Source: Alphaproteobacteria bacterium (GTDB lineage Bacteria; Pseudomonadota; Alphaproteobacteria; Rhizobiales; Xanthobacteraceae). Taken from it: DNA of 31,748 nt. The translations under genes and the position numbers were made by a program. Below the pieces are notes generated by a model, which saw only the letters and a program-made list of their open reading frames with translations, was not told where the DNA came from and ran no database searches. The stretch covers positions 1 to 31,748 of the forward strand of contig VAZH01000025.1 of NCBI GenBank assembly GCA_005884465.1, read 5' to 3'. Shown here piece after piece: positions 3,623 through 25,012 of the stretch; the stretch's first letter is position 1; every line of letters begins with the position of its first letter.

Positions 3623-3730
3623 GCACTTGGTGCCACAGGCCGAATTGTTCATGATTTACCTGATCATGACGGCGGTGCTGATGTTTCGCCCCGAGGGTCT
3701 GTTCAAGCGCGAGACGGCAAGGCGAATCTG

Positions 3731-10785: not shown

Positions 10786-11244
10786 TCACCGCGGCACTAC
10801 CGCCGTCGCCTCGATCTCGACCCGCGCTGCTTTTTCAACGAGACGCACGACCTGGACCAGCGCCATGGCCGGATAATGCGCTCCCAAGATATCGCGATAG
10901 ATCTGGCCAAGCGTCTTGAGGTTCGCCAGATATTCTTTCATATCGACGACATACCAGGTGAGACGAACGAGGTGCTCGGGCCGCGCGCCGCCCTCCGCCA
11001 GAATGGCTGAAATGTTGCTCAGGGTTTGGCGGACCTGCGCCACAAAGTCGGCCGGCAAATGACCCTGATGATCCCAGCCGATCACGCCGCCAGTCACTAC
11101 GAGGCGGCCGTCGGCCGCCATGCCGTTGGCGTAACCCTTTGGCGCCGGCCAACCGCTTGGCTGCAAGATTTGCGGGCCGTCGGCTGAAGTCTCACCCTTC
11201 GTGGTCGGCAAGACCGCAAGCGTGGGCGCTTTTGGCGTGCTCAC
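10786..11244 (-). CDS. RidA/YjgF-family protein (candidate enamine/imine deaminase)
   Basis: A 152-residue protein of the RidA superfamily, starting at GTG 11244 with GGAGA about 9 bases upstream. It shows the family layout: PSGWPAPKGYANGMAADGRLVVTGGVIGWD, then QVRQTLSNISAILAEGGARPEHLVRLTWYVVD and a C-terminal VEKAARVEIEATAVV. The key arginine of true RidA (in the RVEIEA stretch) is present. RidA enzymes hydrolyse reactive enamines and imines to ketones and ammonia. It is 28 bases downstream of the 2-aminobenzoate-CoA ligase gene on the same strand and surely co-transcribed. That suggests a dedicated role on the amino-substituted dearomatised CoA intermediate (inference). Other RidA-superfamily members bind ligands without catalysis. 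Confidence 0.88.
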   Translation of the reverse strand: MSTPKAPTLAVLPTTKGETSADGPQILQPSGWPAPKGYANGMAADGRLVVTGGVIGWDHQGHLPADFVAQVRQTLSNISAILAEGGARPEHLVRLTWYVVDMKEYLANLKTLGQIYRDILGAHYPAMALVQVVRLVEKAARVEIEATAVVPR

Positions 11245-11272: not shown

Positions 11273-12952
11273 TTATTCCGCTGCCATGCCCGCCGACGAA
11301 GCGCCGGCCTGGGCCATCTGCCGCAATGCAAATCGCTTCAGTTTGCCGGTTTCCGTCTTGGGCAGTTGCGCGACGAATTCGATCGCGCGCGGATATTTGT
11401 AGGGCGCGATCTCGCGCTTGACATGGTCCTGCAAGTCAGCCGTCAGCGCCGCATCTCCGGTGATGCCGGGCGCCAAAACCACATAGGCCTTCACGATCAT
11501 GCCGCGCGCTTCGTCGGGCGCGCCGACGACGCCGCACTCGGCCACCGCCGGATGAGTCAGCAAGACCGATTCGACCTCCGGGCCGGCGATGTTGTAGCCC
11601 GCGGAGATAATCATGTCGTCCGATCGGGCTACGAAAGACAAGCGGCCCTTCTCGTCGCGGATGAACGCATCGCCTGTCAGATTCCAGCCATTGCGCACAT
11701 AGTTCGACTGCCGCGAATCCGCGAGATAGCGGCACCCGGTCGGGCCGCGAACCGCAAGCTTCCCGACGGTTCCCGGCGGCAATTCGTTCATGTCATCGTC
11801 GACGATCCTTGCTTCGTAACCGGAAACCGGGTGCCCCGTCGTTCCGGCGACGGCGTCGCCTATTCGGTTCGTAATGAAGATATGCAGCAATTCCGTGCTG
11901 CCAATCCCGTCGAGAATCGTCTTGCCCGTCTTGCGAATCCAGCTTTCGAAAACCGGCGCCGGCAAAGTCTCCCCCGCCGAAACCGCAAGACGCAGCGACG
12001 ACAGATCGGCGCCCTTGTCCATCGCGGCCATCATCGCCCGATAGGCGGTCGGCGAGGTAAAGCAAATCGTGGCCTTGTAGGTTTGAATGATATTGACCAT
12101 CTCGCTGGGTGCCGCGTTTTCCAGCAGCGTCGCGGTAGCGCCGAACCGCAACGGAAAGATCGCAAGACCGCCGAGTCCGAACGTAAAGGCAAGCGGCGGT
12201 GATCCAACGAAGATATCATCCGGAGTGACGTTGAGCACTTCCCTGGCATAACCATCCGCGACGATCAGGAGATCGCGATGGAAATGCATCGTCGCTTTTG
12301 GTTCGCCCGTGGTGCCCGAGGTAAATCCCAGCAAGGCGACGTCATCCCGGCCGGTTTTGACCGCATCGAACCGGACCGGCTTGTTCAGCGCCACCCGATC
12401 GAGCTCGGCGTCATGGTTTGAGGTTCCGTCAAAATTCACGACCTGCTTGAGAAATCGGCTTGTTTTCGCGCACGCGACCAGCTCATCGGCGACACGACTG
12501 TCAGTCAGCGCAAGGCCGATCTCCGCCTTGTCAACGATCTTGGTCAATTCACCGGCACGAAGCATCGGCATGGTATTGACGACAACGGCGCCTGCTTTCG
12601 TTGCCGCAAGCCATGCAGCAACCAGGGCCGGATTGTTGCCCGAGCGTATCAGGACCCGGTTGCCGGGCTTCACGCCGTAATTTTCCACCAACGCATGCGC
12701 AAGGCGGTTCGACCAGTCTGCCAGCTCCTTGTAGGTGCGCTGGCGACCGTTGCCGATGAGCGCGATACGATCGCCGAACCCCTTCTCTACAATCCGGTCG
12801 GTCAGCTCGACCGCGACATTAAGATATTCGGGATACTGAAACTCCGGCCGGTCGAGAAGCAACTCCGGCCATTGGTGTAACGGTGGAAGATTTCGCCGCG
12901 CAAAATCATCAATGTGACCCGATGGGCCAAGGCTGGGAATTCCACCCGACAT
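11273..12952 (-). CDS. abmG: 2-aminobenzoate-CoA ligase (benzoate-CoA ligase family, AMP-forming)
   Basis: An adenylate-forming enzyme of about 559 residues that activates an aromatic carboxylic acid to its CoA thioester. I prefer the ATG at 12952 because AAGGGGG lies about 6 bases before it; another ATG at 12958 overlaps that site. Visible motifs are the phosphate loop FTSGTTGEPKATM (about residues 210-222), SAGETLPAPVFESW, GIGSTELLHIF, the hinge region GWNLTGDAF and the C-terminal catalytic lysine in PKTETGKLKRFALRQ. Overall similarity to benzoate and 2-aminobenzoate-CoA ligases, the co-transcribed RidA gene and the fused monooxygenase/reductase 5 kb away point to anthranilate as substrate. 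A salicylate or benzoate ligase is the alternative. A copy of the shared operator-like motif lies 76 bases upstream. Confidence 0.85.
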   Translation of the reverse strand: MSGGIPSLGPSGHIDDFARRNLPPLHQWPELLLDRPEFQYPEYLNVAVELTDRIVEKGFGDRIALIGNGRQRTYKELADWSNRLAHALVENYGVKPGNRVLIRSGNNPALVAAWLAATKAGAVVVNTMPMLRAGELTKIVDKAEIGLALTDSRVADELVACAKTSRFLKQVVNFDGTSNHDAELDRVALNKPVRFDAVKTGRDDVALLGFTSGTTGEPKATMHFHRDLLIVADGYAREVLNVTPDDIFVGSPPLAFTFGLGGLAIFPLRFGATATLLENAAPSEMVNIIQTYKATICFTSPTAYRAMMAAMDKGADLSSLRLAVSAGETLPAPVFESWIRKTGKTILDGIGSTELLHIFITNRIGDAVAGTTGHPVSGYEARIVDDDMNELPPGTVGKLAVRGPTGCRYLADSRQSNYVRNGWNLTGDAFIRDEKGRLSFVARSDDMIISAGYNIAGPEVESVLLTHPAVAECGVVGAPDEARGMIVKAYVVLAPGITGDAALTADLQDHVKREIAPYKYPRAIEFVAQLPKTETGKLKRFALRQMAQAGASSAGMAAE

Positions 12953-13027
12953 TTCCATCCCCCTTGTTTTTCGGGATGATAGCTTTGAGACCAAGCTGCA
13001 GGCGGTCCGGCAGCGCTATTCCCAAAC

Positions 13028-13048
13028 ATTTTATACTTAAAGTAATTT
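13028..13048 (-). promoter_or_regulatory. MarR-type operator candidate A, upstream of the CoA ligase
   Basis: Plus strand ATTTTA then TACTTAAAGTA then ATTT. The core TACTT-A-AAGTA is a perfect 5+5 inverted repeat. The site lies 76 bases before the ligase start and is one of six related sites (see 14486, 14563, 20198, 22201, 22808). Confidence 0.6.
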
Positions 13049-13091
13049 GGTGCAATAGACCAAATTCGGGCAATCCATTACTTTTTGAAAC

Positions 13092-13910
13092 CTAGCGTCC
13101 CGCCAATTCCTTCAGGCGCAGCACCATCGGCGAATGTGGATCGGCCAGCGGGGCAATCGCGGTGAAGTGGTTGGCACCGGAAACTACCCCAAACCGTGTC
13201 GTGACCCCGGCAGCCCCCCAGAGGTCAACGATGGTCCTGCTTTGCCGGAAATATTCCGCGCTTTCGTTTTCGCCGACCACCGCGTCGAGGCTTCCGCGCA
13301 GGGGCGCGTTCCAGAACAACGGGCTCGCAGCCCGGGCCGCTGCGTGGTCGAGACGCAACGCATTGTTGATCGAGGTCTCGACCAGCGGCCCGAGATCGAA
13401 CAGGCCCGAAATGGCGTAGGCCGCCACGACGAGGTCTTCGGGTAACGTACTATCGAACGCCGGCCAGTCGGTCCCCAGCATGCAGGCCGCAAGATGCCCT
13501 CCCGCGGAATGGCCGCTGATGACGAGAGACCGCCCAAGCCGCGCCAGCTCACGCGATGCCGCCCGCATCTGTTGGATGATGTCGTCCACGGTGACGCTGG
13601 GACAAAGGTCGTAGCTTGGAATGGCGACGCTGATCCCGTGGGCGTTCAGTCCTCCCGCGAGGTGGCTGAAAGAGGAACCGTTCAGCGATTGCCAGTAGCC
13701 GCCATGAATGAAAACAACGATCGGGCCTTCATGATCGCCGGGGAAGAAATCGATCATGTTCCGCGCGCCGGGACCGTAGGAAATAGAGCGCGGGGCGTAC
13801 CGTGCGCGATAGGCTGCCGCGTCTTTTGCCCAACCGGCGAATAGCGAGGGGTGTTCCGGAACCCGCGCCCGGTTGTTGTATTCGACCTCGTAGTCGACAC
13901 TCGCGTTCAA
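13092..13910 (-). CDS. Alpha/beta hydrolase with HGGYW motif (kynurenine formamidase-like)
   Basis: A 272-residue alpha/beta hydrolase. The oxyanion-hole motif is HGGYW (residues 69-73) and the nucleophile elbow GHSAGG (Ser135). The likely acid and base are a Glu/Asp near 214 (VVGENES) and His248 (SGANHFTAIAPL). HGGxW with GHSAGG is the pattern of eukaryotic-type kynurenine formamidase and related aryl-esterases, so it may release anthranilate or an aryl acid from an N-formyl or ester precursor; the substrate is not determined by sequence. The frame opens at TTG 13910, only 4 bases after the MarR stop codon, with no clear Shine-Dalgarno of its own, so it is probably translationally coupled to MarR. 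Confidence 0.82.
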   Translation of the reverse strand: MNASVDYEVEYNNRARVPEHPSLFAGWAKDAAAYRARYAPRSISYGPGARNMIDFFPGDHEGPIVVFIHGGYWQSLNGSSFSHLAGGLNAHGISVAIPSYDLCPSVTVDDIIQQMRAASRELARLGRSLVISGHSAGGHLAACMLGTDWPAFDSTLPEDLVVAAYAISGLFDLGPLVETSINNALRLDHAAARAASPLFWNAPLRGSLDAVVGENESAEYFRQSRTIVDLWGAAGVTTRFGVVSGANHFTAIAPLADPHSPMVLRLKELAGR

Positions 13911-13914
13911 GGCG

Positions 13915-14439
13915 CTACAATGCCCGTCGCTTCGCGGATTTCTGCGCGGAGGCTTTTGTCTTTGCCAACAGACGCATCAATTCGCGGACATCCTTCGGGG
14001 TGAGATCTGAAAATATGTCGGCGATCCAGTTCTCGTGCTCCGCGGCCATCTTGCGAAACTCGGCGCGGCCGATTTTCGTCAGCCGTATCACCTGCACGCG
14101 CCGGTCGGTACCAGATGTTCGCCGGTCAAGATGGCCGGATTCGACGAGGCGCTCGACCAGCCCGGTCACGTTGCCGTTGGAGACCATCATCCGCTTCGAG
14201 ACATCGGACAAAGTCATGCCTTCCGGCACCTTGTCGAGCTGGGCCATCAGGTCGAACCGCGGCAGCGTGACATCGAACCGCTCACGCAGCCGGCTGCGCA
14301 CTTCGCCCTCGATCAGGGTCGTGCAGGTCAGCAGGCGAAGCCACAATCGAAGCTCGTTGCCGTGATCTTCCGGGAGTTCGACGGCCTTGGTCTCGGAATC
14401 AAGGATCATGATCCAATCATACCTGCTTGCAGCCTTCAT
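13915..14439 (-). CDS. MarR-family transcriptional regulator
   Basis: A 174-residue winged-helix regulator. Helices typical of the MarR dimer interface flank the DNA-binding part: DLMAQLDKVPEGMTLSDVSKRMMVSNGNVTGLVERLVESGHLDRR, the wing SGTDRRVQVIRLTKIG, and a C-terminal helix bundle. MarR proteins in aromatic-CoA clusters usually repress and are released by the aryl-CoA or aryl acid. The ATG at 14439 is used; an ATG at 14409 is possible. It lies head to head with the second binding-protein gene, and two copies of the repeated motif lie in between, one 47 bases from its own start. That suggests autoregulation and makes it the likely controller of the island. A short basic tail (KASAQKSAKRRAL) ends the protein. 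Confidence 0.9.
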   Translation of the reverse strand: MKAASRYDWIMILDSETKAVELPEDHGNELRLWLRLLTCTTLIEGEVRSRLRERFDVTLPRFDLMAQLDKVPEGMTLSDVSKRMMVSNGNVTGLVERLVESGHLDRRTSGTDRRVQVIRLTKIGRAEFRKMAAEHENWIADIFSDLTPKDVRELMRLLAKTKASAQKSAKRRAL

Positions 14440-14485
14440 GACATACCGGCATCGCCGATCTCGCGTTTGTCGGGTTTTTCGCCCG

Positions 14486-14507
14486 TTATTTTGACCTTCA
14501 AATAATT
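14486..14507 (-). promoter_or_regulatory. MarR-type operator candidate E, upstream of marR
   Basis: Plus strand ATTTTG then ACCTTCAAATA then ATT. ATTTTGA and TCAAATA form an imperfect inverted repeat. It lies 47 bases upstream of the MarR start, in line with autoregulation. It is the most divergent of the six sites. Confidence 0.5.
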
Positions 14508-14562
14508 CAGGAGACGCTGCAAGTCAAAACGGCCTTGATGGCAGCTTGCGCCGCTTTCCGGA

Positions 14563-14584
14563 TTTCTTTAGGCTTCAAGCAACT
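14563..14584 (+). promoter_or_regulatory. MarR-type operator candidate F, upstream of the second binding protein
   Basis: Plus strand TCTTTA then GGCTTCAAGCA. It matches site C (22201) closely: TTTAGGCTTCAAGC versus TTTAGACTTCAAGC. It lies 146 bases before the ATG at 14730 and is the only site whose orientation relative to its gene is reversed. The remainder of the 14440-14729 gap shows no gene. Confidence 0.5.
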
Positions 14585-14729
14585 GGCGCACGCCTTGCAT
14601 GCTGTTTGCTGATGGACTTGAACTGCTTGCGGCGATAGCCGTCATGAGAATGGGCTTAAACCTCGAAGGCTCGGATGTGGTCGGCGTGGATTGCGGCGGC
14701 GCGCGTTGCAGTCGATCAGGGGAGGAACC

Positions 14730-15905
14730 ATGAAGCGGCAATTGAAATTGGCGGGGCTGGCGGTTCTGTTGAGCGTCGCGGCTCATCCGGCCGTTGCACA
14801 GGAGAAGCTCAAGATCGGGATCATCGTGACCTTGTCCGGCCCGGCGGCGGTGCTCGGCCAGCAGGTTCGCGACGGTTTCGCGCTCGCAGTCAAGGATCTC
14901 GGCGGCAAGGTGGGCGGCCGCGACGTCGACGTCGTGGTGGTCGATGACGAACTCAAGCCGGACGGCGCCGTGACAAAGGTCAAAGGCTTGCTCGAACGCG
15001 ACAAGGTCGATTTCGTGGTGGGACCGATCTTCTCCAACATTCTCCAGGCGATCCACAAGCCGGTTACGGATTCAAAGACCTTTCTGATCAGCCCGAATGC
15101 CGGCCCGTCGAGCTACGCCGGCAAGAACTGCAGCCCGTTTTTCTACGTGACCTCCTACCAGAACGATCAGGTGTTCGAGATTCTCGGCAAGGTCGCCCAG
15201 GATCGCGGTTACAAGCGCGTCTATGTGCTGGTTCCGAACTATCAAGCCGGCAAGGATTCCGCTGCAGGATTCAAGCTCGATTACAAGGGAGAGATTGTCG
15301 AAGAGACCTACATGCCGCTGGGTACACTGGATTTCCAGGTTGAACTCTCCAAGATGGCATCACTCAAGCCCGAGGCCGTGTTCACCTTCATGCCCGGCGG
15401 GATGGGCGTAAGCCTGGTGAAACAGTACAGGCAGGCAGGCCTGGCCGATCAAATTCCAGTCCTTTCCGCATTCACGGTCGATGAATCGACGCTGCCGGCG
15501 CAGCAGGATGCAGCGATCGGCATGTTTGGCGGCTCGAACTGGGCGCCCAATCTCGACAATCCGCAGAACAAGAAATTCGTTGCTGCTTATGAGGCCGCCC
15601 ACAACAGCGTGCCCGGCACCTACGCCTTCCAGGCCTATGATGCGGCCAAGCTGATCGACAGCGCCGTCAAGGCGGTCAAGGGCGACCTCTCCAACAAGGA
15701 TGCGGTGGCCGCGGCATTGAAGAAGGCGGACTTCACCTCGCTGCGCGGCGGTTTCAAGTTCAACACCAACGGCTATCCGATCCAGAATTTCTACCTGACC
15801 AAGGTCGCCAAACGCCCCGACGGCAAATTTCAGACCGAGATTGTCGAGAAGGTATTCGAAAATTATGGCGACCGTTACGCCAAGGAATGCACGCCGGGCA
15901 ACTAA
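14730..15905 (+). CDS. HAAT-family ABC transporter substrate-binding protein, aromatic-acid type
   Basis: A 391-residue periplasmic binding protein. The ATG at 14730 is chosen for its strong GGGGAGG Shine-Dalgarno and because a signal peptide starts there (KRQLKLAGLAVLLSVAAHPAVA|QEKLKIG). The mature protein opens KIGIIVTLSGPAAVLGQQVRDGF, the Peripla_BP_6 signature. No permease or ATPase gene is near it, so it must share membrane components with another HAAT transporter, perhaps the one at 2236-6131. It is 20 bases upstream of a cupin gene and divergent from MarR, so the likely ligand is the aromatic acid degraded by this island (inference). Close relatives in Rhodopseudomonas palustris bind benzoates. 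Confidence 0.9.
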   Translation: MKRQLKLAGLAVLLSVAAHPAVAQEKLKIGIIVTLSGPAAVLGQQVRDGFALAVKDLGGKVGGRDVDVVVVDDELKPDGAVTKVKGLLERDKVDFVVGPIFSNILQAIHKPVTDSKTFLISPNAGPSSYAGKNCSPFFYVTSYQNDQVFEILGKVAQDRGYKRVYVLVPNYQAGKDSAAGFKLDYKGEIVEETYMPLGTLDFQVELSKMASLKPEAVFTFMPGGMGVSLVKQYRQAGLADQIPVLSAFTVDESTLPAQQDAAIGMFGGSNWAPNLDNPQNKKFVAAYEAAHNSVPGTYAFQAYDAAKLIDSAVKAVKGDLSNKDAVAAALKKADFTSLRGGFKFNTNGYPIQNFYLTKVAKRPDGKFQTEIVEKVFENYGDRYAKECTPGN

Positions 15906-15925
15906 AACGACGAGAAGGAAACGCG

Positions 15926-16381
15926 ATGAAGAGCGAGATCACTGGTATTACCCGGGCCAATGAGGGCATGCAGGGGATTTCCTGGAATATCCTCGGCCAG
16001 ACCTATGTCCCGAAAAACTGCACCGACCATTGCTTCTCCTGGCATGCGATGTTACCGCCCGGCACCTTCGTTCCGCCGCATATTCATCCGGATCAGGACG
16101 AGTATCTTTATATGCTGGAAGGCAAACTCGATTTCATGCTTGCCGGCGCCGATGCGCAGGCGACGCCGGGCGACCTGATACGCCTTGGGATGGGCGTTCC
16201 CCACGGCATCTTCAACAAATCCGACCAGACCGCGAAAGTGCTGTTCTGGGTATCGCCGACCCAAAAACTGTACGATCTGTTCTGGGGCCTTCACAACATG
16301 AAGGAGCAAAAGCCCGAGGACGTCGTGGCGATGGCCGCCGAATACAATATTCACTTCCTGCCGCCACCGCCGGGGGCATGA
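15926..16381 (+). CDS. Small single-domain cupin protein (copy 1)
   Basis: A 151-residue protein; the ATG at 15926 follows GAAGGAAA. It carries both cupin motifs: PPHIHPDQDEYLYMLEG with His52, His54 and Glu59, and GDLIRLGMGVPHGIFN with His93. The full metal-ligand set (HxH, E, H) is therefore intact and catalysis with Fe, Mn or Ni is possible. The N-terminal WNILGQTYVPK and C-terminal HFLPPP segments recur in the second cupin at 22331, with the same ligand spacing. It is co-transcribed with the binding protein. Candidate roles are a dioxygenase, isomerase or decarboxylase step of the pathway, or protection of a labile intermediate; sequence alone does not decide. Confidence 0.85.
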   Translation: MKSEITGITRANEGMQGISWNILGQTYVPKNCTDHCFSWHAMLPPGTFVPPHIHPDQDEYLYMLEGKLDFMLAGADAQATPGDLIRLGMGVPHGIFNKSDQTAKVLFWVSPTQKLYDLFWGLHNMKEQKPEDVVAMAAEYNIHFLPPPPGA

Positions 16382-16393
16382 GAGCATTCTCGT

Positions 16394-16470
16394 AGCCCGG
16401 ATGGAGCGCAGCGAAATCGGGGACCGCACTCGTTGGTATCACAATCCCCGGATTGCGCTCCATCCGGGCT
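16394..16470. repeat. REP-like palindrome between convergent genes
   Basis: AGCCCGGATGGAGCGCA (16394-16410) pairs perfectly with TGCGCTCCATCCGGGCT (16454-16470); a weaker inner stem includes TCGGGGA and TCCCCGGA. The AGCCCGGATGGAGCG type is a dispersed palindrome familiar from Bradyrhizobium-like genomes. A fragment of another repeat type (CTCCTCGCAATGACG, 16481-16495) follows. Between two converging genes it could act as a bidirectional terminator. Confidence 0.8.
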
Positions 16471-16506
16471 CCCAGCTTTGCTCCTCGCAATGACGAGAGT
16501 GGATAG

Positions 16507-17757
16507 TCACGCCCGCACGGCCGCCAGCCCCGGCACGGCCGCGAAGCCGGCCTTGCTGGCATAGCCGCGCACGATCGCTTCGCGCTGGGCATAGCTCAGC
16601 ACATTCTCGACATTGTCGAAGCCGTCCGGCGCCAGCTGCTCCACCGCGTCGATCACACCTTCCGGGCCGCCGCGTCGGTTGGAGCGCACAATCTCGGCTG
16701 TCATCGGCAACCGCTGTTGCTCATACGCCACCAGCGCCTGGCGCGGGTGCTCGGAACGCGCCAGCGTATCCGCCAGGCAGCGCGCATCGAGAATGGCTTG
16801 CGATGCGCCATTTGATCCCACCGGATACATTGGGTGCGCGGCGTCGCCGAGCAGCGTGACGCGGCCACTGGACCAATAGGGCAAGGGATCGCGGTCGCAG
16901 GTCGGATACTCGTAGAACTCCGGCGTCGCCGAGATCAGGTTCGGCACATCGACATAGGGCACCGAGAACCGCGCCACATGCGGCATCAGTTCCTCGCGCT
17001 TGCCCGGCCGCGACCAGTCCTCGCGGCGAGGCGGCGGCGCGTTGCCGTCACCGACTTTCACCAGCACCGCCCAGTTGGTCAGACGGCTCGCCGGGCTCGA
17101 TCCTTCGCCAATGGGATAGACCACGACCTTGGCATGGAGGCCGCCGGCGACAATCATCGACCGGCCGGTCAAAAACACCGGCCAGTCGCGGGCGCCGCGC
17201 CACAGCATCAGCCCGTTCCAGCAGGGTGGACCTTCGTCCGGGAACAGGGTTTCGCGCACCCGAGAGTGAATTCCGTCGGCACCGACCAGAATATCGCCGC
17301 GCACGGTCTTGGTGTGCTGACCTGCGCGATCGAAGAAATACGCGGTGACGCCGCCCTCGTCCTGGTTAAACGCCCCAAGTCTGCAGCCGGTATGGATCGC
17401 GTCCCGCCCCAGTCGCTCCTCGACGGCGCGGTGGATCACGCTCTGCAGCCGGCCGCGATGAATCGAGAATTGCGGCACGTCATGGCCGGCATCGATGCCG
17501 CGGGATTCGCGCCAGACTTCCTGGCCATGGCGATTGAGATAATAGAGCACGTCGGTGCGGATCGCGACGTCGTCGAGCCTTTGCAACAGGCCGAGGCCGG
17601 CGAGCTCGCGGATCGCATGCGGCAGCGTATTGATACCGACGCCGAGCTCGCGGATGGTATCGGACTGCTCGAACAGTTCGCAACCGATGCCGCGGGCGCG
17701 CAGCATCAGCGCAGTGGTAAGGCCCCCGATACCGCCCCCGACGATAATCGCCTTCAT
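16507..17757 (-). CDS. FAD-dependent aromatic monooxygenase (PhzS/salicylate-hydroxylase-like, group A)
   Basis: A 416-residue flavoprotein hydroxylase. It has the N-terminal Rossmann motif VGGGIGGLTTA (residues 6-16), the DG motif LVGADGIHSRVRE near 160, and the GD motif VTLLGDAAHPMYPVGSNGASQAILDA near 310. It lacks any extra C-terminal domain. Such enzymes use NAD(P)H and O2 to hydroxylate activated aromatic rings. The layout with VGINTLPHAIREL and GLMLWRGARDW is that of the flavin-dependent oxidoreductases close to PhzS (phenazine hydroxylase). It is on the same strand as, and 55 bases downstream of, the fused monooxygenase/reductase gene, so the two are probably co-transcribed. It may hydroxylate a related substrate, feeding the same pathway. 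Confidence 0.85.
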   Translation of the reverse strand: MKAIIVGGGIGGLTTALMLRARGIGCELFEQSDTIRELGVGINTLPHAIRELAGLGLLQRLDDVAIRTDVLYYLNRHGQEVWRESRGIDAGHDVPQFSIHRGRLQSVIHRAVEERLGRDAIHTGCRLGAFNQDEGGVTAYFFDRAGQHTKTVRGDILVGADGIHSRVRETLFPDEGPPCWNGLMLWRGARDWPVFLTGRSMIVAGGLHAKVVVYPIGEGSSPASRLTNWAVLVKVGDGNAPPPRREDWSRPGKREELMPHVARFSVPYVDVPNLISATPEFYEYPTCDRDPLPYWSSGRVTLLGDAAHPMYPVGSNGASQAILDARCLADTLARSEHPRQALVAYEQQRLPMTAEIVRSNRRGGPEGVIDAVEQLAPDGFDNVENVLSYAQREAIVRGYASKAGFAAVPGLAAVRA

Positions 17758-17812
17758 CGCCCAACTCCACGCAATACCTTACCGCAACGGACCGCCAAAC
17801 TCGCATGGTCGG

Positions 17813-20164
17813 TCACTCGGCCGCAAGCGGCTTTGCCGCCTCCGCCTTCAGCTCGGCCCGGGTCTTCGGCTTAGCCTTAATTTTCAGATCCTCGAAATCC
17901 TGCCGGTCGCGCACGCTGTTACGGAAAATCTGCTCCTTGCCCGGCAAATATTGCGGCGGGCAGAATACGGCATCGACGCCGTACCAGGCCGCGGCCTTCA
18001 GCGTGAAAGATGGATCGACCAGATGCGGGCGCGCGAGCGCCACCAGATCGGCGCGGCCTGCGGCGAGGATGGTGTTGACCTGATCGGCCGTTGTGATGTT
18101 GCCGACGCACATGGTGGCGACGCGCGCCTCGTTGCGGACCTGGTCGGAGAATGGCGTCTGGAACATGCGGCCATAAACCGGCTGGGCGTCGCGCACGGTC
18201 TGGCCGGTAGAGACATCCACCAGATCGACGCCGGCTTCGGCGAAGGCGCGTGCGATCGCTACTGCGTCGTCGCCGGTAATGCCGCCTTCCGCCCAGTCGG
18301 TCGCGGAGATGCGTACCGACATCGGCTTGTGCGCCGGCCACGCCGCCCGCAACGCCTCGAACACTTCGAGCGGAAAGCGCAAGCGATTGGCAAGCGAACC
18401 CCCGTAGGCGTCGGTGCGCGTGTTGGTCAGCGGCGAAATAAAGCTCGCGAGCAGATAGCCGTGGGCGCAATGCAGCTCCAGCATGTCAAAGCCGCAGCGT
18501 TCGCCGCGCTCCGCCGCGGCAACGAATGCTGCCTTTACCGCCTCCATTGCGGCGCGGTCCATCTCGCGCGGCACCTGGCTGTCGGGGAAGTAAGGAATCG
18601 GCGATGCCGACAAAACATCCCAACCGCCCTCTTCCAACGGACGGTCCATGCCATCCCACATCAGCTTGGTGGCGCCCTTGCGGCCGGCGTGGCCAAGCTG
18701 CAGGCAAATCTTCGCTGCAGAATTGGCGTGGACGAAATCGACAATCCGCAGCCAGGCGGCTTCCTGCTCGTCGTTCCACAGCCCGGTACAGCCCGGCGTG
18801 ATGCGCGCATCGCGGCTGACACAGGTCATTTCGGTGAAGATCAAACCGGCGCCACCGATGGCGCGCGATCCGTAATGCACGAAATGAAAATCGGTAGGCA
18901 CGCCTTCCTTTGCCGAATACATGCACATCGGCGACACCACTGCGCGATTGGTCAGTTCCATCTCGCGCAATCGCAACGGCTGGAACATCGGCGCCACCGG
19001 TTTCTCGACATCGACGTCGAAGCCTTTGGCGCGAACCTGCTTCGCGAACGCCTTGTCGACCTCTCTGACAAAATCCGGTGCCCGCAGCGTCAGATTGTCG
19101 TAGGTGATCGCCTTGGCGCGGGTCATGACGCCGAACGCGAACTGCACCGGGTCAAAATCCCAGAAGCGATCGACGTGCTCGAACCAAACCAGCGACACAT
19201 CAGCGGCGTGCTGGGTCTTCTCGACCTCCTCGCGGCGTCCTTCCTCGTATTGCTGCAACGCGGCGTCGACTGTGGGCGCGCGATGCATGGCGTCCGCCAG
19301 CGCAATCGCGTCTTCCATCGCAAGCTTGGTGCCGGAGCCGATCGAGAAATGCGCGGTCGCCTTGGCGTCGCCTAACAGCACCATGTTGGCCTTGACCCAT
19401 CGCTTGCTGCGGATCATCGGGAAATTGCGCCACATCGAGCGGTTGGTCAGGAGCTGATGCCCTTGGAGGAACCAGCCGAAAATCTCGGCCATTCGATCGG
19501 CAGATTGCCTCTCGCTCAGGCCCTCGAGCCCCGCGCGCCTGAAGGTCTCGGGATCGGTCTCAAAGATCCAGGTCGAGCGTCCTACTTCGTACTGATAAGC
19601 GTGGGCGATAAACGGGCCCCACTCGGTTTCCTGAAAAATAAAGGTGAAGGCGTCGAGCGGCCGGGTCGAACCCATCCAGGCGAACATATTGGAGCGAACA
19701 TCCACCTCGGGCTGGAAGTGCTCGATATATTTGTCACGAAAGCGGCTATTGATGCCATCGGCCAGCACCACCAGATCGGCATCAGTAAAGCGGGCCTCGT
19801 CGTCAATGTCTGCCTCGAACAGCAAGGCGACGCCGAGTTCGCGCGCCCGCTCCTGCAGGATCAGCAACAGCCTGCGACGCGAGCAGCCACAGAAGCCGTT
19901 GCCGCCGACCCTATGCACCGTGCCCCGAAAATGCACGGCGATATCATCCCAATAGGCGAACTCCTGGGTGATGCGGCGATAGCTCGGCGGATCGTATTTC
20001 TCGAAATTGTCGAGGGTCGCGTCGGAAAACACCACGCCGAAACCGAAGGTGTCGTCGGCACGGTTGCGCTCATAGACCGTGATCTCGGCCTCCGGGCGCT
20101 GCTTCTTGAGCAGGATCGCGGCATAGAGACCGGCCGGTCCGCCACCGATAATCGCGATCTTCAT
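17813..20164 (-). CDS. abmA: 2-aminobenzoyl-CoA monooxygenase/reductase (fused FAD hydroxylase and old-yellow-enzyme domain; also annotated salicylyl-CoA 5-hydroxylase)
   Basis: A 783-residue fusion enzyme, the size expected for the Azoarcus evansii protein. The N-terminal half is an FAD monooxygenase: GGGPAG at residues 7-12, DG at 136-137, GD at 265-266. From about residue 395 there is an old-yellow-enzyme FMN domain: [30 protein letters not shown] at 488-496, His566 and His569 in HCAHGYLL, and [14 protein letters not shown]. Known relatives hydroxylate 2-aminobenzoyl-CoA at C5 and then reduce the ring with NADH to a non-aromatic 2-amino-5-oxocyclohexene carboxyl-CoA. Some current annotations call the family bifunctional salicylyl-CoA 5-hydroxylase/oxidoreductase, so salicylyl-CoA is the alternative substrate. 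Ligase and RidA genes in the same island favour the amino substrate. An operator-like site lies 34 bases upstream. Confidence 0.88.
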
Positions 20165-20197
20165 GTCAGCCTCCGGCGCAGCGGGACCATGGCAATT

Positions 20198-20219
20198 ATT
20201 TTAAACCTAAAGCAATTTT
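20198..20219 (-). promoter_or_regulatory. MarR-type operator candidate B, upstream of the monooxygenase/reductase
   Basis: Plus strand ATTTTA then AACCTAAAGCA then ATTTT, starting 34 bases before the ATG at 20164. It agrees with site D (22808-22829, read on the minus strand) at 19 of 22 positions by eye. Confidence 0.6.
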
Positions 20220-20304
20220 CCTGCAAGGTCTGGCGTACATACTAGGTCATCTCCGGATGAGCGTATATGCGCTCACTCGGGAGGGGCCGCGCTCGCGCGG
20301 CGTA

Positions 20305-20341
20305 TCGAAGGATGCGCCGCACCGACCGGATCATCCTTCGA
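20305..20341. repeat. Small intergenic inverted repeat
   Basis: TCGAAGGATG (20305-20314) pairs with CATCCTTCGA (20332-20341) around 17 bases. The core resembles a dispersed Bradyrhizobium-type palindrome. It separates the crotonase gene end from the operator and start of the monooxygenase/reductase gene, and could end transcription of the former. Confidence 0.6.
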
Positions 20342-20390
20342 GACTCGCACCTCCAGCGATAACGGCGAAGCCGTTACGCAGGGATGACGT

Positions 20391-21227
20391 CTAGTTTCCC
20401 TGAAATACCGGCTTCGCCTTGCTCGAAAACGCCTCGAATGCCCGGGTAAAATCTGCGGTCGTCATGCATAGCGCCTGCGCGATCGCCTCGGCCTCGATCG
20501 CCTCCTCCACCGACATCGCCCATTCCATCGCCAGCATTCGCTTGGTCATGGTATTGGCGAATGTCGGCCCCTCTGCAATCTCTCTGGCGAGATGTTGCGC
20601 CTGTGACAACACCTGCTCCGGCGCAACGATCCGGCTGAAGAAACCCCACCGCTCGCCCTCCTCCGCGGTCATGAAGCGGCCGGTGTAAAGTAGTTCCGAC
20701 GCCCGCGATTGCCCGATGATGCGCGGAAGGATCGCACAGGCGCCCATGTCGCAGCCGGCAAGACCAACCTTGTTGAACAGGAACGCGACCTTGGCACTCG
20801 TTGCCGCCAGACGCATGTCCGACGCCATGGCAATGATCGCGCCCGCGCCGGCGCAGATGCCTTCGACCGCCGCGATGATTGGTTGCGGGCAAGACCGCAT
20901 TGCCTTGACGAGGTCGCCAGTCATCCGGGTGAAGGCGGTGAGGCCTTTGGTATCCATCTTCACCAGTGGGCCGATGATCTCGAACACATCGCCGCCTGAC
21001 GAAAAATTGCCGCCGGCGCCGGTCACCACGACGGTCTTCACTGCATCGTCAAAGGCGCAGGCGCGGAAAAAATCCGTCAGTTCGCGGTAGCTCTCGAATG
21101 TCAGCGGATTTTTCCGCTCGGGGCGGTTGAACGTCACGGTCGCCACGCCGTCAGCCAGCGCCAGCAGAAAATGTTGGGGCGAATACTGCACCAATGGCAG
21201 CGTGACCGGATTGGCTGATGTGCTCAT
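20391..21227 (-). CDS. Crotonase-superfamily protein (enoyl-CoA hydratase family) with altered active site
   Basis: A 278-residue cytoplasmic protein; the ATG is preceded by AAAGGAG. Crotonase features are [11 protein letters not shown] (CoA-binding/oxyanion loop, about 74-84), [21 protein letters not shown] (121-141) and the C-terminal helices. The catalytic glutamates of classical enoyl-CoA hydratase (CELA and PEI motifs) are replaced: AIIA near 130 and FNKVG near 151-155. Asp160 (AGCDMGA) sits near the Asp used by 4-chlorobenzoyl-CoA dehalogenase. It may therefore hydrate or hydrolytically open the dearomatised ring rather than do standard hydration. Its order after the monooxygenase/reductase in the island fits a later step on the alicyclic CoA ester. 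The exact reaction is unknown. Confidence 0.85.
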
Positions 21228-21247
21228 GGAATCTCCTTTACACCGTT

Positions 21248-21365
21248 GTCATTGCGAGAAGCCAACGGGTCCGGCCTCCGGCCGGCCCGATGATAAACTC
21301 CGCGACGAAGCAATCCAAAACTGTCTTGTCCGGGGCCTGGATTGCTTCGCTACGCTCGCAATGAC
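21248..21365. repeat. REP-like element with nested inverted repeats
   Basis: Outer arms GTCATTGCGAG (21248-21258) and CTCGCAATGAC (21355-21365) enclose inner arms GAAGCAATCCA (21307-21317) and TGGATTGCTTC (21338-21348); all pair perfectly. This is the well-known dispersed CATTGCGAG...GAAGCAATCCA element of Bradyrhizobium-type genomes. It lies between the SDR and crotonase genes on the same strand. Confidence 0.85.
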
Positions 21366-21393
21366 GATTTCAAACTTGCGCAGTACACGCGCC

Positions 21394-22155
21394 TTAAATC
21401 TCTCCGCCTGCAACCGCGATGGCCTGCCCTGTGATCGCGCTTGCTCCTTCGCCGCACAGCCACAACACGGTATCGGCGACTTCCGCAGGGGTCACGAGAC
21501 GCGCTTGCGGATTATGCCTGGAAAGTTCAGCCACCGCCTGCTCGTGGCTGCGGCCGGTTTTCTTCATGATGTTGTCGATACTGCCGGCAAGCAGGTCGGT
21601 ATCGGTGAAACCGGGACACACCGCATTGACCGTCACGCCCGGGCTTGCCAGTTCCAGCGCGAGCGAGCGCACCAGCCCGACCACCGCGTGTTTCGCGGCG
21701 CTATAGGCACTGACATAGGCATAGCCTTTCAGCCCAGCGGTTGATGCGATAGCGACAATGCGACCATAGCGCCGGTCCCGCATCGAAGGCAGCGCCGCCT
21801 GTATGGCATGAACCACGCCCATAAAATTGACATCCAGCATTCGCTTGAATAGCGCCGCGTCGGATTTACCGAACGGCGCGGACTCCGCGATCCCTGCATT
21901 GGCAATCAGGATATCGATCGGTTGACGCGCCGCCGCTTCCGCGATTGCGGCGCGGACGGCCGCCTGATCCGCGACATCGGCCACGGCCGCGAAGTGCGCG
22001 GCACCGGCGGCAATTGCGTCATCCAGCGTTGCGCGATGGCGGCCGAGCACTGTAACCGTCGCTCCGGCGCGCGCAAGCGTGGACGCGATCTCGCGGCCGA
22101 TGCCTCGCCCGCCGCCTGTGACGAGCGCGTGGGAGGAACGCGGCAGTCCGGACAT
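21394..22155 (-). CDS. Short-chain dehydrogenase/reductase (classical SDR)
   Basis: A 253-residue NAD(P)-dependent oxidoreductase. The cofactor motif TGGGRGIG is at 13-20, NAG at 86-88, and the full catalytic tetrad is Asn110, Ser138, Tyr151, Lys155 (YSAAK). The C-terminal AITGQAIAVAGGEI matches the 3-oxoacyl reductase/3-hydroxyacyl-CoA dehydrogenase type. A likely role is oxidation or reduction of a hydroxyl/keto group on an alicyclic CoA intermediate. It is on the same strand as the crotonase gene, but a REP-like element intervenes. An operator-like site lies 46 bases upstream, so it appears to head its own unit, divergent from the second cupin. Confidence 0.9.
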   Translation of the reverse strand: MSGLPRSSHALVTGGGRGIGREIASTLARAGATVTVLGRHRATLDDAIAAGAAHFAAVADVADQAAVRAAIAEAAARQPIDILIANAGIAESAPFGKSDAALFKRMLDVNFMGVVHAIQAALPSMRDRRYGRIVAIASTAGLKGYAYVSAYSAAKHAVVGLVRSLALELASPGVTVNAVCPGFTDTDLLAGSIDNIMKKTGRSHEQAVAELSRHNPQARLVTPAEVADTVLWLCGEGASAITGQAIAVAGGEI

Positions 22156-22200
22156 GCTCAGCCTCCCTGAGTGGATTCGTCAACATAACAACTTGCGTAT

Positions 22201-22222
22201 ATTTTAGACTTCAAGCTTTTGC
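22201..22222 (-). promoter_or_regulatory. MarR-type operator candidate C, between SDR and cupin 2
   Basis: Plus strand ATTTTA then GACTTCAAGCT then TTTG. It lies 46 bases before the SDR start and 109 bases before the divergent cupin start, so it could control both. Confidence 0.55.
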
Positions 22223-22330
22223 AAGAAATCCGCTCCCGATCAGCGCAACGAGGTCAACCGCATCGTTCAGGCACGCTTGACAGATGAAGCGCCGCGGGTA
22301 GCGTCGAGTTGACAAGCCGGAGGATTAGTT

Positions 22331-22780
22331 ATGGCAGCGCTCGAAAAAGGCATTACCCGGAATGGAGAGGGATTTTCAGGCAAGACCTGGAACATCCTCG
22401 GTCAGGTTTATTTTCCGAAGGCAGTATCCGACTCTACCTTCGCCTTTGAGACCAACAGCGAGCCGGGGCAGTTTGTCCCTGTCCACATTCATCCAACGCA
22501 AGAGGAGTTTATCCTTGTGCAGGTGGGCATGCTGGATCTCAAACTCGATGGCGTTTGGGTGCAGGCCAAGGCCGGAGACTTGGTACGCTTGCCGCGAGGC
22601 ATTTCGCACGGCTATTTCAACAAATCGGACAAGCCTGCCCGCGCCCTGTTCTGGGTGTCACCCTCCGGAAAGCTGGAGGCGCTGTTCAACCAGTTGCACA
22701 ATCTGACAGATGTCGAGGAAATCGTCCGCATTTCCGCCGAGCACGAAGTTAACTTCCTGCCTCCCGAGGCCAATGACTGA
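22331..22780 (+). CDS. Small single-domain cupin protein (copy 2)
   Basis: A 149-residue paralogue of the cupin at 15926. It has the same metal ligands at the same numbers: His52, His54, Glu59 in PVHIHPTQEEFILVQVG and His93 in GDLVRLPRGISHGYFN. It shares WNILGQ, FNKSD and FWVSP blocks with copy 1; roughly half the residues agree by eye. The ATG follows GCCGGAGG. It stands alone between the SDR (divergent) and the five-gene operon downstream. Retention of two copies, each near the shared operator motif, suggests both serve the pathway, perhaps on different intermediates. The reaction is not known. Confidence 0.85.
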   Translation: MAALEKGITRNGEGFSGKTWNILGQVYFPKAVSDSTFAFETNSEPGQFVPVHIHPTQEEFILVQVGMLDLKLDGVWVQAKAGDLVRLPRGISHGYFNKSDKPARALFWVSPSGKLEALFNQLHNLTDVEEIVRISAEHEVNFLPPEAND

Positions 22781-22807
22781 TTGAACCGGCGAGCATCGCT
22801 CGATCCC

Positions 22808-22829
22808 AAAATTGCTTTAAATATAAAAT
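22808..22829 (+). promoter_or_regulatory. MarR-type operator candidate D, upstream of the five-gene operon
   Basis: Minus strand ATTTTA then TATTTAAAGCA then ATTTT. It lies 65 bases before the GTG at 22894. Relative to its gene it has the same orientation as sites A, B, C and E. Confidence 0.6.
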
Positions 22830-22893
22830 TATTGCTTTTCAACCGCCGCGGTCCTGTTAGCATCGGCAGGTCCGATTTGACCGGAGGTCCGGC

Positions 22894-23721
22894 GTGCCTC
22901 ATCTCGCGCCCATGAAAACCAAAGATTGCCGTTTTGGCTATGTGGCCGCCGGCGATCCCGGCATGCCGCCGCTGGTGTTCCTGCATGGAATCGGCGGCGC
23001 GGCGCGGGCGTGGCGCGGCCAACTGGATTTTTTTAAGCATCGCTATCGCGCCATCGCCTGGGACATGCCGGGCTATGGCGGATCGGCGCTGCTTCCAACC
23101 GTTAGCATTGCTGCGCTCGCGGACGCGTTGCAGGATTTCCTGGGGCAGGTCGGCGCAACCAAACCCATTCTCGTTGGGCATTCGATCGGCGGCATGATCG
23201 TTCAGCAACTGCTGGGGAAACATTCTCGTATCGCCAGCGCTATCGTTCTCGCACAAACCAGTCCGGCATTCGGCAAACCTGACGGCGACTGGCAGAAAGC
23301 CTTCATCGAGGCGCGGCTCGGCCCGCTCGATCGCGGCGAAACGCTGGCCTCGCTTGCGCCATCCCTTGTGAAGGAACTGGTAGGTGACGACCCGGACATC
23401 GGCGGCATCGAGCTTGCCCGCGACTGCATGGCCTGCGTTCCCGAGGCGACCTATCGCGCCACGATGCTCGCGATGTTGGGGTTCGACCAGCGCAACAGAC
23501 TCAAGGATATCGCGGTGCCGTCGCTGCTGCTGTCGGGCTCGAAGGACAAGAATGCGCCGGCGCCGATGATGGCCAAGATGGCGACGTATATACCATCGGC
23601 AGAATACGTTGAACTTAAAGGCGTCGGCCACCTTGCCAATCTGGAACGTCCGGGTGCCTTCAACGCCGCGCTGGATGCTTTTCTGAAAGCCAACGCGGCT
23701 GCAACACATGTGACGGCATGA
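22894..23721 (+). CDS. Alpha/beta-fold hydrolase (enol-lactonase/ring-cleavage-product hydrolase type)
   Basis: A 275-residue hydrolase and the first gene of a five-gene operon. The GTG at 22894 is taken as the start because GGAGG lies 6 bases before it; an ATG 18 bases later is less well placed. The triad is visible: Ser97 in GHSIGG, Asp218 in LLSGSKDKN and His246 in KGVGHLANLERP; the HG oxyanion motif is at 31-32. This pattern is shared by 3-oxoadipate enol-lactonases and meta-cleavage-product hydrolases. It may hydrolyse a ring-opened or thioester intermediate. Its last codons overlap the next gene by 4 bases (ATGA). Confidence 0.87.
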   Translation: MPHLAPMKTKDCRFGYVAAGDPGMPPLVFLHGIGGAARAWRGQLDFFKHRYRAIAWDMPGYGGSALLPTVSIAALADALQDFLGQVGATKPILVGHSIGGMIVQQLLGKHSRIASAIVLAQTSPAFGKPDGDWQKAFIEARLGPLDRGETLASLAPSLVKELVGDDPDIGGIELARDCMACVPEATYRATMLAMLGFDQRNRLKDIAVPSLLLSGSKDKNAPAPMMAKMATYIPSAEYVELKGVGHLANLERPGAFNAALDAFLKANAAATHVTA

Positions 23722-25010
23722 TGACGGTGCAGGCCAGCAAAAGCGTAACTGATATCGACGAGATCGATCCGGATGCGCCGATCTTCGATTCACAGGCGTT
23801 CCGGCTGAACGACGAACAGGCCGCAATCATCGCGAGCGCGCGAAAGCTTGGCCAAAATGTGTTCGCGGGCCGCGCAGCGGCCTATGATCGTGACGCAAAA
23901 TTCCCGACCGAGAATTACAGGGACCTGCATCGCGCCGGTCTGCTCGGCATCGCCATTCCCAAAAAGCACGGCGGGCTCGGCGCAGATTATCAGACCTACG
24001 CCATAGCGGCGGCCGAGATCGGCCGCTATTGCGGCGCGACCGCGCTAACCTGGAACATGCACGTCTGCTCGACGCTGTGGTCCGGCCCGCTGGCCGACGA
24101 TCTCGAGATGGACGCCGCGACCCGCGCCGAGCACGAACGCCGGCGCGCCATCCACTACAAACGCATCGTCGAGGACGGCGCGATCTATTCGCAGCCCTTC
24201 TCGGAAGGCGGCGCGGCCGCGGCGGGCGGCGTTGCGTTCGGCACAGAGGCAAAACCGGTCAAAGGCGGCTGGCTCGTCACTGGCAAGAAGATTTTTGCGT
24301 CGCTTTCCGGCCATGCCGATTATTACGGCGTGCTCTGTACCGAAGTTGCCGAAGGTGAGAAGGCCTCCCGCCGCAACACGCTCTACCTCGCGATACCAGC
24401 CAAGGCCGCTGGCGTATCTGCCGTCGGCGACTGGGATCCGCTGGGCATGCGCGGCACGGTCTCGCGCACGCTGTTCTTTAAGGATGCATTCGTGCCGGAG
24501 GATGCGGCGCTGATGCCACGCGGTGTCTATTTTCAGGCAGCGATGCGCTGGCCGCACATGTTCCTGACGCTGTCGCCGACTTATGTCGGCCTGGCGCAGG
24601 CGGCTTACGATTTCACCGTGCGATACTTACGCGGCGAGGTACCGGACACGCCGCCGGTAAAGCGTCGGATGTATCCGACCAAGCAGATCGCGGTGGCGCA
24701 GATGCAGATCAAGCTGGAACAGGTCAAGGCGATCTGGTTTCAGGCGATCTCCGAAGCCCGCGCCAATCCGACCAAGGAGCAGGTGCTCCGCGCCTATGCC
24801 GCGCAGTATTCGGCAATGGAAGGCGCCAACGAGATCGCGACGCTGGCGATCCGCACCTGCGGCGGTCAGGCGATGCTGAAATCGCTGCCGCTGGAACGGA
24901 TCTATCGCGACAGCCGCTGCGGTTCGCTGATGCTGCCGTGGACTGCCGAACTCTGTCTCGATCGCATCGGCCGCGAAGCGCTGTACGAGACTGGCGAAGC
25001 GGACGAGTAA
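23718..25010 (+). CDS. Acyl-CoA dehydrogenase-family flavoprotein lacking the usual catalytic glutamate
   Basis: A 430-residue protein with the acyl-CoA dehydrogenase fold: N-terminal helical domain (FRLNDEQAAIIASARKLG), LGIAIPKKHGGLGADYQTYA at 76-95, the beta domain with GKKIFASLSGHADYYGVL, GDWDPLGMRGTVSRTLFF, and the C-terminal helices with AMEGANEIATLAIRTCGGQAML. The catalytic-base position, usually YEGT after the YRD arginine segment, reads SLMLPWTAE (403-411) and has no Glu at that point. The isovaleryl-type alternative Glu is not evident either. It may be a dehydrogenase with another base, or a non-dehydrogenase member such as a flavin monooxygenase. It overlaps the gene before by 4 bases and is 2 bases from the next. 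Confidence 0.87.
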   Translation: MMTVQASKSVTDIDEIDPDAPIFDSQAFRLNDEQAAIIASARKLGQNVFAGRAAAYDRDAKFPTENYRDLHRAGLLGIAIPKKHGGLGADYQTYAIAAAEIGRYCGATALTWNMHVCSTLWSGPLADDLEMDAATRAEHERRRAIHYKRIVEDGAIYSQPFSEGGAAAAGGVAFGTEAKPVKGGWLVTGKKIFASLSGHADYYGVLCTEVAEGEKASRRNTLYLAIPAKAAGVSAVGDWDPLGMRGTVSRTLFFKDAFVPEDAALMPRGVYFQAAMRWPHMFLTLSPTYVGLAQAAYDFTVRYLRGEVPDTPPVKRRMYPTKQIAVAQMQIKLEQVKAIWFQAISEARANPTKEQVLRAYAAQYSAMEGANEIATLAIRTCGGQAMLKSLPLERIYRDSRCGSLMLPWTAELCLDRIGREALYETGEADE

Positions 25011-25012
25011 CT

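Follow-up and report, generated by a model that had tools for sequence, protein, structure and literature searches.

The question raised by this locus is whether a short AT-rich motif, repeated upstream of several transcription units, joins these units into one regulon and which protein reads it. The locus lies on contig VAZH01000025.1 (assembly GCA_005884465.1) of an alphaproteobacterium assigned to the Xanthobacteraceae; "the window" refers to the whole stretch analysed, 31,748 nucleotides. It encodes a MarR-family regulator amid genes for a putative anthranilate (2-aminobenzoate) pathway that proceeds through coenzyme A (CoA) thioesters, including an aryl-CoA ligase (ligA), a monooxygenase/reductase fusion (named abmA here) and the substrate-binding protein of an ATP-binding cassette (ABC) transporter. 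A preliminary description of this DNA had proposed that six copies of the motif form a single MarR regulon, and this proposal is supported by co-occurrence of the regulator with abmA, by conservation at the promoters, by sites upstream of marR itself and by distal sites at tryptophan-to-anthranilate genes. The six sites are copies of one palindromic site, very probably that of the MarR repressor encoded among them. From the sequence comparisons, it is highly probable that this MarR is an autoregulated repressor, that its operators overlap the promoters of several genes, and that an anthranilate-derived ligand, probably 2-aminobenzoyl-CoA, releases it.

All six sites were found within one to three bases of the positions first reported, upstream of the pathway genes that had been named for them. 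With up to three mismatches, the 19-mer TTTTANACTTNAAGCAATT returned five sites in the window, at 13029, 14566, 20199, 22202 and 22810 (minus strand), where 0.02 would be expected by chance; the sixth, at 14489, differs from the 19-mer at four positions, as counted from the sequence. The source assembly comprises 3.83 Mb in 678 contigs (70.9% complete, with Bradyrhizobium-like DNA). Seven matches at up to three mismatches occur in all of it, five of them inside the window, while the reversed pattern gives three; at up to two mismatches there are four matches, all in the window. The genome scan proposed at the outset thus finds the sites concentrated in the window (five of seven) with few elsewhere. 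The concern that the motif might be equally common elsewhere was not borne out: besides this concentration, its frequency across the 198 genomes surveyed below exceeds the control only where the MarR gene is present.

Sites were scored with two position matrices. The window genes were mapped onto a genus-level sample of 80 loci around close relatives of the MarR gene (Bradyrhizobium for the most part, plus some Tardiphaga and relatives with less precise names), from which 280 sites with 253 distinct sequences were collected, and a 24-column genus matrix was built from these relatives' sites. On 2.19 Mb of reversed loci, it gave one match of at least 15 bits (between 20 and 22) and none at 22, whereas all six window sites reach at least 26 bits. 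A second, other-family matrix was trained on 17 sites from outside the family, themselves selected with the genus matrix; it recovers all six window sites, which score 18.0-38.1 bits, and has no other match of at least 10 bits.

The predicted operator is a 24-base-pair (bp) dyad, AATTR-YTTKA-N4-TMAAR-YAATT, with the symmetrised consensus AATTATTTTAAGCTTAAAATAATT. Over the 253 distinct sites, self-complementarity is sharply highest about an axis that falls between positions 7 and 8 of the motif, with a correlation of 0.877 and 62.6% of pairs complementary (46.4% at the second-best axis). The inverted repeat ACTTnAAGT, first taken as the core, is not the centre of symmetry: the correlation at its axis is 0.047 and the true centre lies 3.5 bp to one side. 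That five of the six sites share one orientation relative to their genes stands as an observation and carries little weight as evidence because the site is palindromic; at ligA, abmA and the short-chain dehydrogenase (SDR) gene the orientation may mirror promoter overlap. The usual size of a MarR operator is given as 16-20 bp in a passage of PMC10458429, and a 24-bp dyad near gene starts agrees with that size or longer. When gapped palindromes were sought de novo in 44 loci, with the reversed sequence as the control, TTTAA-N2-TTAAA, the core of the operator, was found in 18 loci against 0. No other pattern in the top 12 was AT-rich. Since reversal does not preserve codon bias, most of the excess consists of GC-rich palindromes of codon type, and the search supports the operator only weakly. 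As a separate observation, the 22-mer AATATTTTCCTTTTCAAGTATT recurs exactly in several genomes (G024:C1:1362973, G196:C5:190330, G064:C55:82969, G026:C78:169668). It was set aside as a copy of this operator, since no site of 15 bits was found where this was tested (locus L161), and is probably an unrelated conserved element.

In the window the sites precede the leading genes of what look like separate transcription units, and this placement is conserved. In the genus-level sample a site was present in 79 of the 80 loci, the exception (L086) being one where only the MarR gene matched. At the family level 36 loci were chosen, each genus being represented by one or two and that of the window by five; a site of at least 20 bits was present somewhere in 35 of them. 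The remaining one (L147, 19.9 bits) belongs to genome G031, the sole family genome with the MarR gene and no abmA. Upstream sites were counted over loci L038-L153, for genes with a matched N-terminus and at least 200 bp of upstream sequence, as a site of at least 20 bits within 260 bp; these fractions are slightly favourable, the genus matrix having been trained on part of the same loci. A site stands upstream of 80 of the 81 genes for the binding protein, 86 of 93 abmA homologues, 22 of 23 first genes of the five-gene operon and 34 of 43 ligA homologues, and less regularly before SDR (57/80) and cupin B (14/23) homologues. The marR gene itself has one in 87 of 97 cases, an operator upstream of its own gene as in regulators of the CouR/HcaR type; the corresponding window sites are 14484 and 14561. 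Only 2 of 75 cupin A homologues have a site, and none was found before genes internal to the operons, namely those for the FAD (flavin adenine dinucleotide) monooxygenase (0/77), enoyl-CoA hydratase (0/81), RidA (0/67) and formamidase-like hydrolase (0/52). The site is retained beside abmA/SDR/hydratase sets of only about 52-61% identity and beside ligases of about 50-60%.

At ligA, abmA and SDR, the gene-proximal half of the operator reads TAAAAT, similar to a -10 hexamer, and a TTGC/TTGA-type box stands immediately before the operator. In the window the arrangements are TTGCAG-N17-TAAAAT for abmA and TTGCAC-N16-TAAAAT for ligA (spacings counted by hand), the -10-like hexamer being supplied by operator bases. 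A -35-like box (TTGA, TTGC or TTGG) was sought in the 14 bases before the operator, with an equal-sized window further up as the control. It was found in 73 of 86 distinct abmA promoters against 19 in the control, in 31 of 33 for ligA against 1, in 39 of 56 for SDR against 5, and in 22 of 78 for the binding-protein gene against 9. These predicted boxes support an overlap with a sigma-70-type promoter at abmA, ligA and SDR, where a repressor would be expected to sit; no clear overlap emerges at the remaining units.

The link between the sites and the MarR protein was examined in a family survey of 198 genomes, the window's own counted (MarR called at E <= 1e-25, abmA at E <= 1e-120). The MarR gene was present in 100 genomes and abmA in 102; 99 had both, 1 MarR alone, 3 abmA alone and 95 neither. 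The pattern WWTNYTTTANRYTTMAARNAWT was counted at up to two mismatches with the reversed pattern as the control, and one palindrome may score on both strands. MarR-positive genomes have a mean of 6.71 matches against 1.09 for the control, and MarR-negative genomes 1.14 against 1.18 (Mann-Whitney p about 9e-20 between the two groups; control p 0.46). Of the 13 genera that contain genomes both with and without MarR, 12 have the higher mean among the MarR-positive genomes; genus g6 shows the opposite, 0 against 1. The protein carries the MarR winged-helix domain (PF12802, 45.3 bits at a cut-off of 27; PF01047, 33.6 bits at 24.6), and its closest solved structure by sequence, among the matches listed, is 3boq (E 7.7e-21). 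In 46 MarR proteins of less than 75% identity (lowest 46%), residues M85, V86, G89, N90 and T92, which probably belong to the recognition helix, are retained in more than 95%. Covariation between this helix and the operator was considered and no claim is made for it, loci with a weak or absent site mostly retaining the same helix. Some genomes encode a second MarR, 43-48% identical to that of the window. Genome G064 is such a case: its main locus (L130) holds the MarR gene (90%) and its neighbours, abmA being absent, and at another of its loci (L125) an abmA-type gene (51-52%) lies beside the second MarR gene (48%), where the operator recurs with a score of 42 bits. The two paralogous repressors of this genome may share sites.

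In relatives' genomes, sites also occur away from the main locus. In G024 and G196 they lie 70-80 bp before a hydrolase gene that is followed by the genes for tryptophan 2,3-dioxygenase and kynureninase. The hydrolase is 37-38% identical to the window hydrolase at 13092-13910; NCBIfam labels that of G196 a hormone-sensitive lipase, and we infer that it is the formamidase of this kyn (tryptophan-to-anthranilate) operon. A tryptophan dioxygenase match was found in 47 of 60 genus genomes. Of 30 such loci examined, G024 included, 29 have a site that scores at least 15 bits (18.7 in two of them) and stands about 1 kb ahead of the dioxygenase gene, beyond the position that the hydrolase occupies in G196; the locus without a site (L177) starts near a contig edge. 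An AndR-like AraC-type regulator gene was found in 39 of 60 genus genomes, with a site in all 30 loci examined, G024 included. AndR is its only NCBIfam match at E 1e-30, with 157 bits below the cut-off of 350. Other distal sites lie near acyl-CoA dehydrogenase genes (L155, L331), at a divergent CoA-ligase pair (L329), between genes for a LivH-type permease and a binding protein (L159 in G138, 32 bits), and upstream of an ABC ATPase gene that follows the same five-gene operon and permeases (L332 in G026, 35 bits).

The enzymes probably belong to the known 2-aminobenzoyl-CoA pathway of Azoarcus evansii. The best solved relative of LigA is the anthranilate-CoA ligase 4wv3, in line, by homology only, with the 2-aminobenzoate-CoA ligase of an abm cluster; its score with the NCBIfam benzoate-CoA ligase family, 370.3 bits, is slightly below the cut-off of 375.25. 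AbmA unites PF01494 and PF00724 in one protein of 783 amino acids, the monooxygenase-reductase fusion of an abm cluster, and would be of either the 2-aminobenzoyl-CoA monooxygenase/reductase or the salicylyl-CoA 5-hydroxylase type, between which homology alone cannot choose. The ligase homology and the distal kyn sites point to anthranilate. The window hydrolase matches 2pbl, a putative esterase (5.2e-37), 9n8r, a lipase (2.1e-30), and 4e11, a kynurenine formamidase (1.1e-21), and the structures 3c96/2rgj matched by the FAD monooxygenase downstream of abmA are entries for PhzS. The genes of the five-gene operon encode an alpha/beta hydrolase, an acyl-CoA dehydrogenase-like protein, a CoA ligase, an octopine-dehydrogenase-like protein and a 3-hydroxyacyl-CoA dehydrogenase.

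Several results weigh against a single MarR regulon for anthranilate, or against its generality. The site fades further out. At the order and class levels, where 51 genomes match the MarR (the window's own included), 16 of 20 chosen longer loci have a site of at least 20 bits, two have one at 15-20 and two have none above 9, so that 4 of 20 stay below 20 bits; of 29 short loci, 18 reach 20 bits and 11 do not. Among 23 abmA loci beyond the family, 16 reach 20 bits and 7 fall below, three of them without a site of 12 bits. Five abmA loci lie outside the class: four (L289, L294, L301, L302) have a site of at least 15 bits and L303 has none. A MarR of 41-46% identity occurs within L294, L302 and L303, and none was found in the short flanks of L289 and L301; L303 and the class-level locus L304 have a MarR of 42-43% and no site. 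In the family survey, 9 of the 100 MarR-positive genomes lack a pattern match at two mismatches, 61 of the 98 MarR-negative genomes have at least one, at the control rate, and of the three genomes with abmA and no MarR detected, one (G159) still has 9 matches. At the five-gene operon (2/20, control 2) and at marR (1/85, control 8), the -35-like box is no more frequent than in the control. AbmA scores above the NCBIfam cut-off for salicylyl-CoA 5-hydroxylase (NF006101, 1149.7 against 1078 bits), and this best NCBIfam model is not one for 2-aminobenzoyl-CoA. Finally, the window's own assembly, which is incomplete, yielded neither the distal sites nor a match to tryptophan dioxygenase.

By the mechanism proposed here, MarR would bind as a dimer to the TTTA and TAAA half-sites, which lie about one turn of the helix from each other, block RNA polymerase and also regulate marR. 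Its affinity for DNA would be lowered by a ligand derived from anthranilate, 2-aminobenzoyl-CoA formed by the regulon's own ligase being the most likely candidate, and the genes for uptake, CoA activation, ring attack and beta-oxidation would be switched on together. The repressor's targets in Bradyrhizobium relatives would further include the kyn operon and the gene of the AndR-like AraC regulator. By analogy 2-aminobenzoyl-CoA is a plausible inducer; the thioester is favoured on two grounds, namely that CoA thioesters are the ligands sensed by MarR regulators in aryl-CoA routes and that the ligase itself belongs to the regulon. The PaaX-type repressor MeqR2 of Arthrobacter Rue61a reportedly answers to anthraniloyl-CoA. 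CouR, HcaR and BadR of aryl-CoA routes respond to CoA thioesters (PMC10458429), and R. jostii CouR to p-coumaroyl-CoA and not to p-coumarate (PMC4737184). A free compound such as anthranilate, kynurenine or another upstream metabolite is nonetheless possible as the inducer of the same MarR, if on balance somewhat unlikely: the kyn operon and the AndR-like regulator gene carry the site, the ligand is not readable from sequence, and the auxin regulator IadR (MarR_73) is described as binding the free acid indole-3-acetic acid (IAA) (PMC9613470).

Whether MarR acts only as a repressor is a further matter. The median distance from the site to the start of the binding-protein gene is 151.5 bp, about 150 bp, the -35-like box is rarer there than at abmA or ligA and is not enriched toward marR or the five-gene operon, and BadR is listed as both repressor and activator (PMC10458429); an activating or dual role at some sites, notably between marR and the binding-protein gene, is unlikely all the same, given that at abmA, ligA and SDR the operator overlaps promoter-like elements as expected for a repressor. 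That another regulator, such as the AndR-like AraC protein or a second MarR, reads the sites while the neighbouring MarR is incidental seems very improbable. The second MarR of some genomes, with that of G064 beside an abmA-type gene and the same operator, would fit such an arrangement, but the AraC gene is known from just 39 of the 60 genomes of the genus sample and was not found in that of the window, the sites track MarR over the 198 genomes and stand upstream of marR or its operon, and a dyad with half-sites one turn apart suits a MarR dimer. Least probable, and scarcely tenable, is a conserved AT-rich promoter element with no repressor at all. The motif does supply the -10-like hexamer after a -35-like box at abmA, ligA and SDR, yet the 24-bp dyad reaches beyond any hexamer, and the motif is at control level in genomes that lack MarR and absent upstream of the four operon-internal genes.

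The features of the window are collected in Table 1. Outside the proposed regulon, a second branched-chain-type ABC transporter set (binding protein, permeases and two ATPases) lies at 769-6131 without an operator. In it, a 300-nucleotide stretch of a LivH-type permease gene (2410-2709) is repeated 599 bases downstream (3009-3308) at 99% identity, the length possibly being limited by the tool; the repeat is either a tandem duplication or an assembly artefact. The contig ends within minus-strand genes for an ABC permease and ATPase (29699-31748), so that their promoter is out of view. In a relative's locus (L165:189-2366), a single open frame encodes a LigA homologue (56%) followed by a RidA homologue (77%), with operators at the frame start, and could be a ligase-RidA fusion.

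Table 1. Genes and predicted operators of the window, with position, strand and supporting matches or scores.
Feature	Position	Strand	Support
RidA/L-PSP family protein, downstream of ligA	10786..11244	-	PF01042 6.3e-22
Aryl-CoA ligase (ligA)	11273..12994	-	4wv3 anthranilate-CoA ligase 1.1e-87
Predicted operator 1, promoter of ligA	13024..13047	.	37.7 bits genus, 36.5 bits other-family; TTGCAC-N16-TAAAAT toward ligA
Alpha/beta hydrolase, kynurenine formamidase among relatives	13092..13910	-	2pbl, 9n8r, 4e11
MarR-family regulator, proposed repressor	13915..14439	-	PF12802 9.9e-12, PF01047 3.6e-8
Predicted operator 2, marR-proximal	14484..14507	.	26.1 bits genus, 21.6 bits other-family
Predicted operator 3, between marR and binding-protein gene	14561..14584	.	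29.2 bits genus, 18.0 bits other-family
Branched-chain-type ABC substrate-binding protein	14730..15905	+	PF13458 3.3e-77; start picked by translation
Cupin A	15887..16381	+	PF07883 1e-15
FAD monooxygenase, downstream of abmA	16507..17757	-	3c96/2rgj 5e-86
FAD monooxygenase/old-yellow-enzyme fusion (abmA)	17813..20164	-	PF01494 + PF00724; NF006101
Predicted operator 4, promoter of monooxygenase/reductase gene (abmA)	20194..20217	.	41.3 bits genus, 38.1 bits other-family; TTGCAG-N17-TAAAAT
Enoyl-CoA hydratase, downstream of SDR	20391..21227	-	PF00378 3.1e-46
Short-chain dehydrogenase (SDR)	21394..22155	-	PF00106 1e-55
Predicted operator 5, SDR promoter, divergent from cupin B	22197..22220	.	27.1 bits genus, 18.7 bits other-family
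Cupin B, divergent from SDR	22331..22780	+	PF07883 3.4e-16
Predicted operator 6, upstream of five-gene operon	22810..22833	.	37.1 bits genus, 31.8 bits other-family
Five-gene operon	22894..28628	+	Pfam; last gene NF006125

Known systems offer partial parallels. The A. evansii clusters, the subject of Schuhle et al. in 2001, are said to include a MarR-like regulator, a substrate-binding protein and a RidA-like protein. For aerobic 2-aminobenzoate degradation in A. evansii, the source passages describe two similar clusters with the abmG ligase, 2-aminobenzoyl-CoA monooxygenase/reductase and beta-oxidation (PMC4539516, PMC8388817). Counterparts of the 2-aminobenzoate-CoA ligase, of the monooxygenase/reductase and of beta-oxidation enzymes are predicted in the window as well; compared by description only, the window differs in a proposed regulon with a defined operator, a formamidase-like hydrolase, two cupins, the FAD monooxygenase and the five-gene operon. 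CouR, HcaR and BadR likewise concern a MarR beside a CoA-ligase pathway, with a thioester ligand in the passage on them (PMC10458429) that is only proposed here. They serve other pathways, and none so named is among the solved-structure matches listed for the window MarR (60 of 61). Arthrobacter Rue61a, which degrades quinaldine by way of anthranilate-CoA, is mentioned as having regulators of the PaaX type for this route (PMC3534580); they differ in family (PaaX, not MarR) and host (an actinobacterium), the comparison being by description and not by operators. IadR/IacR are, as far as the source passages go, MarR repressors of an aromatic catabolic locus, and the iad route ends in anthranilate (PMC9613470, PMC11630574, PMC12633357), whereas their structures are weak matches to the window MarR (7kua 8e-7, 7kfo 7.4e-5, 7kym 0.0034). 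An auxin (iad/iac) regulon was rejected on this weak similarity and on the lack of a Rieske gene, no Rieske oxygenase domain being found among the 28 window open reading frames scanned with Pfam. KynR is a regulator of the Lrp/AsnC type. It is described as controlling the kyn genes from tryptophan to anthranilate (PMC7057948) and resembles the present system in that control; it differs in not being a MarR protein, while here the kyn operon carries a MarR-linked operator. Among the open-access PMC matches listed, no MarR regulator or operator was found for the 2-aminobenzoyl-CoA pathway, subscription papers and regulon databases lying outside this scope; the passages found in PMC8879955 and PMC13141888 name abm genes without a regulator.

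Taken further, the comparisons suggest, at roughly even chances, an old MarR-operator pair found in many Alphaproteobacteria and partly beyond, in which the CoA thioester of anthranilate would switch the whole route, including the kyn operon and an AraC co-regulator in Bradyrhizobium, as a positive-feedback hub. Anthranilate links the breakdown of tryptophan, plant auxin and indole to central metabolism, and compounds of this kind are encountered by Bradyrhizobium at roots. An operator, a candidate repressor and a regulon list that includes the kyn genes would make the control of this pathway directly testable, and operator and repressor could yield a part for an anthranilate-responsive biosensor.

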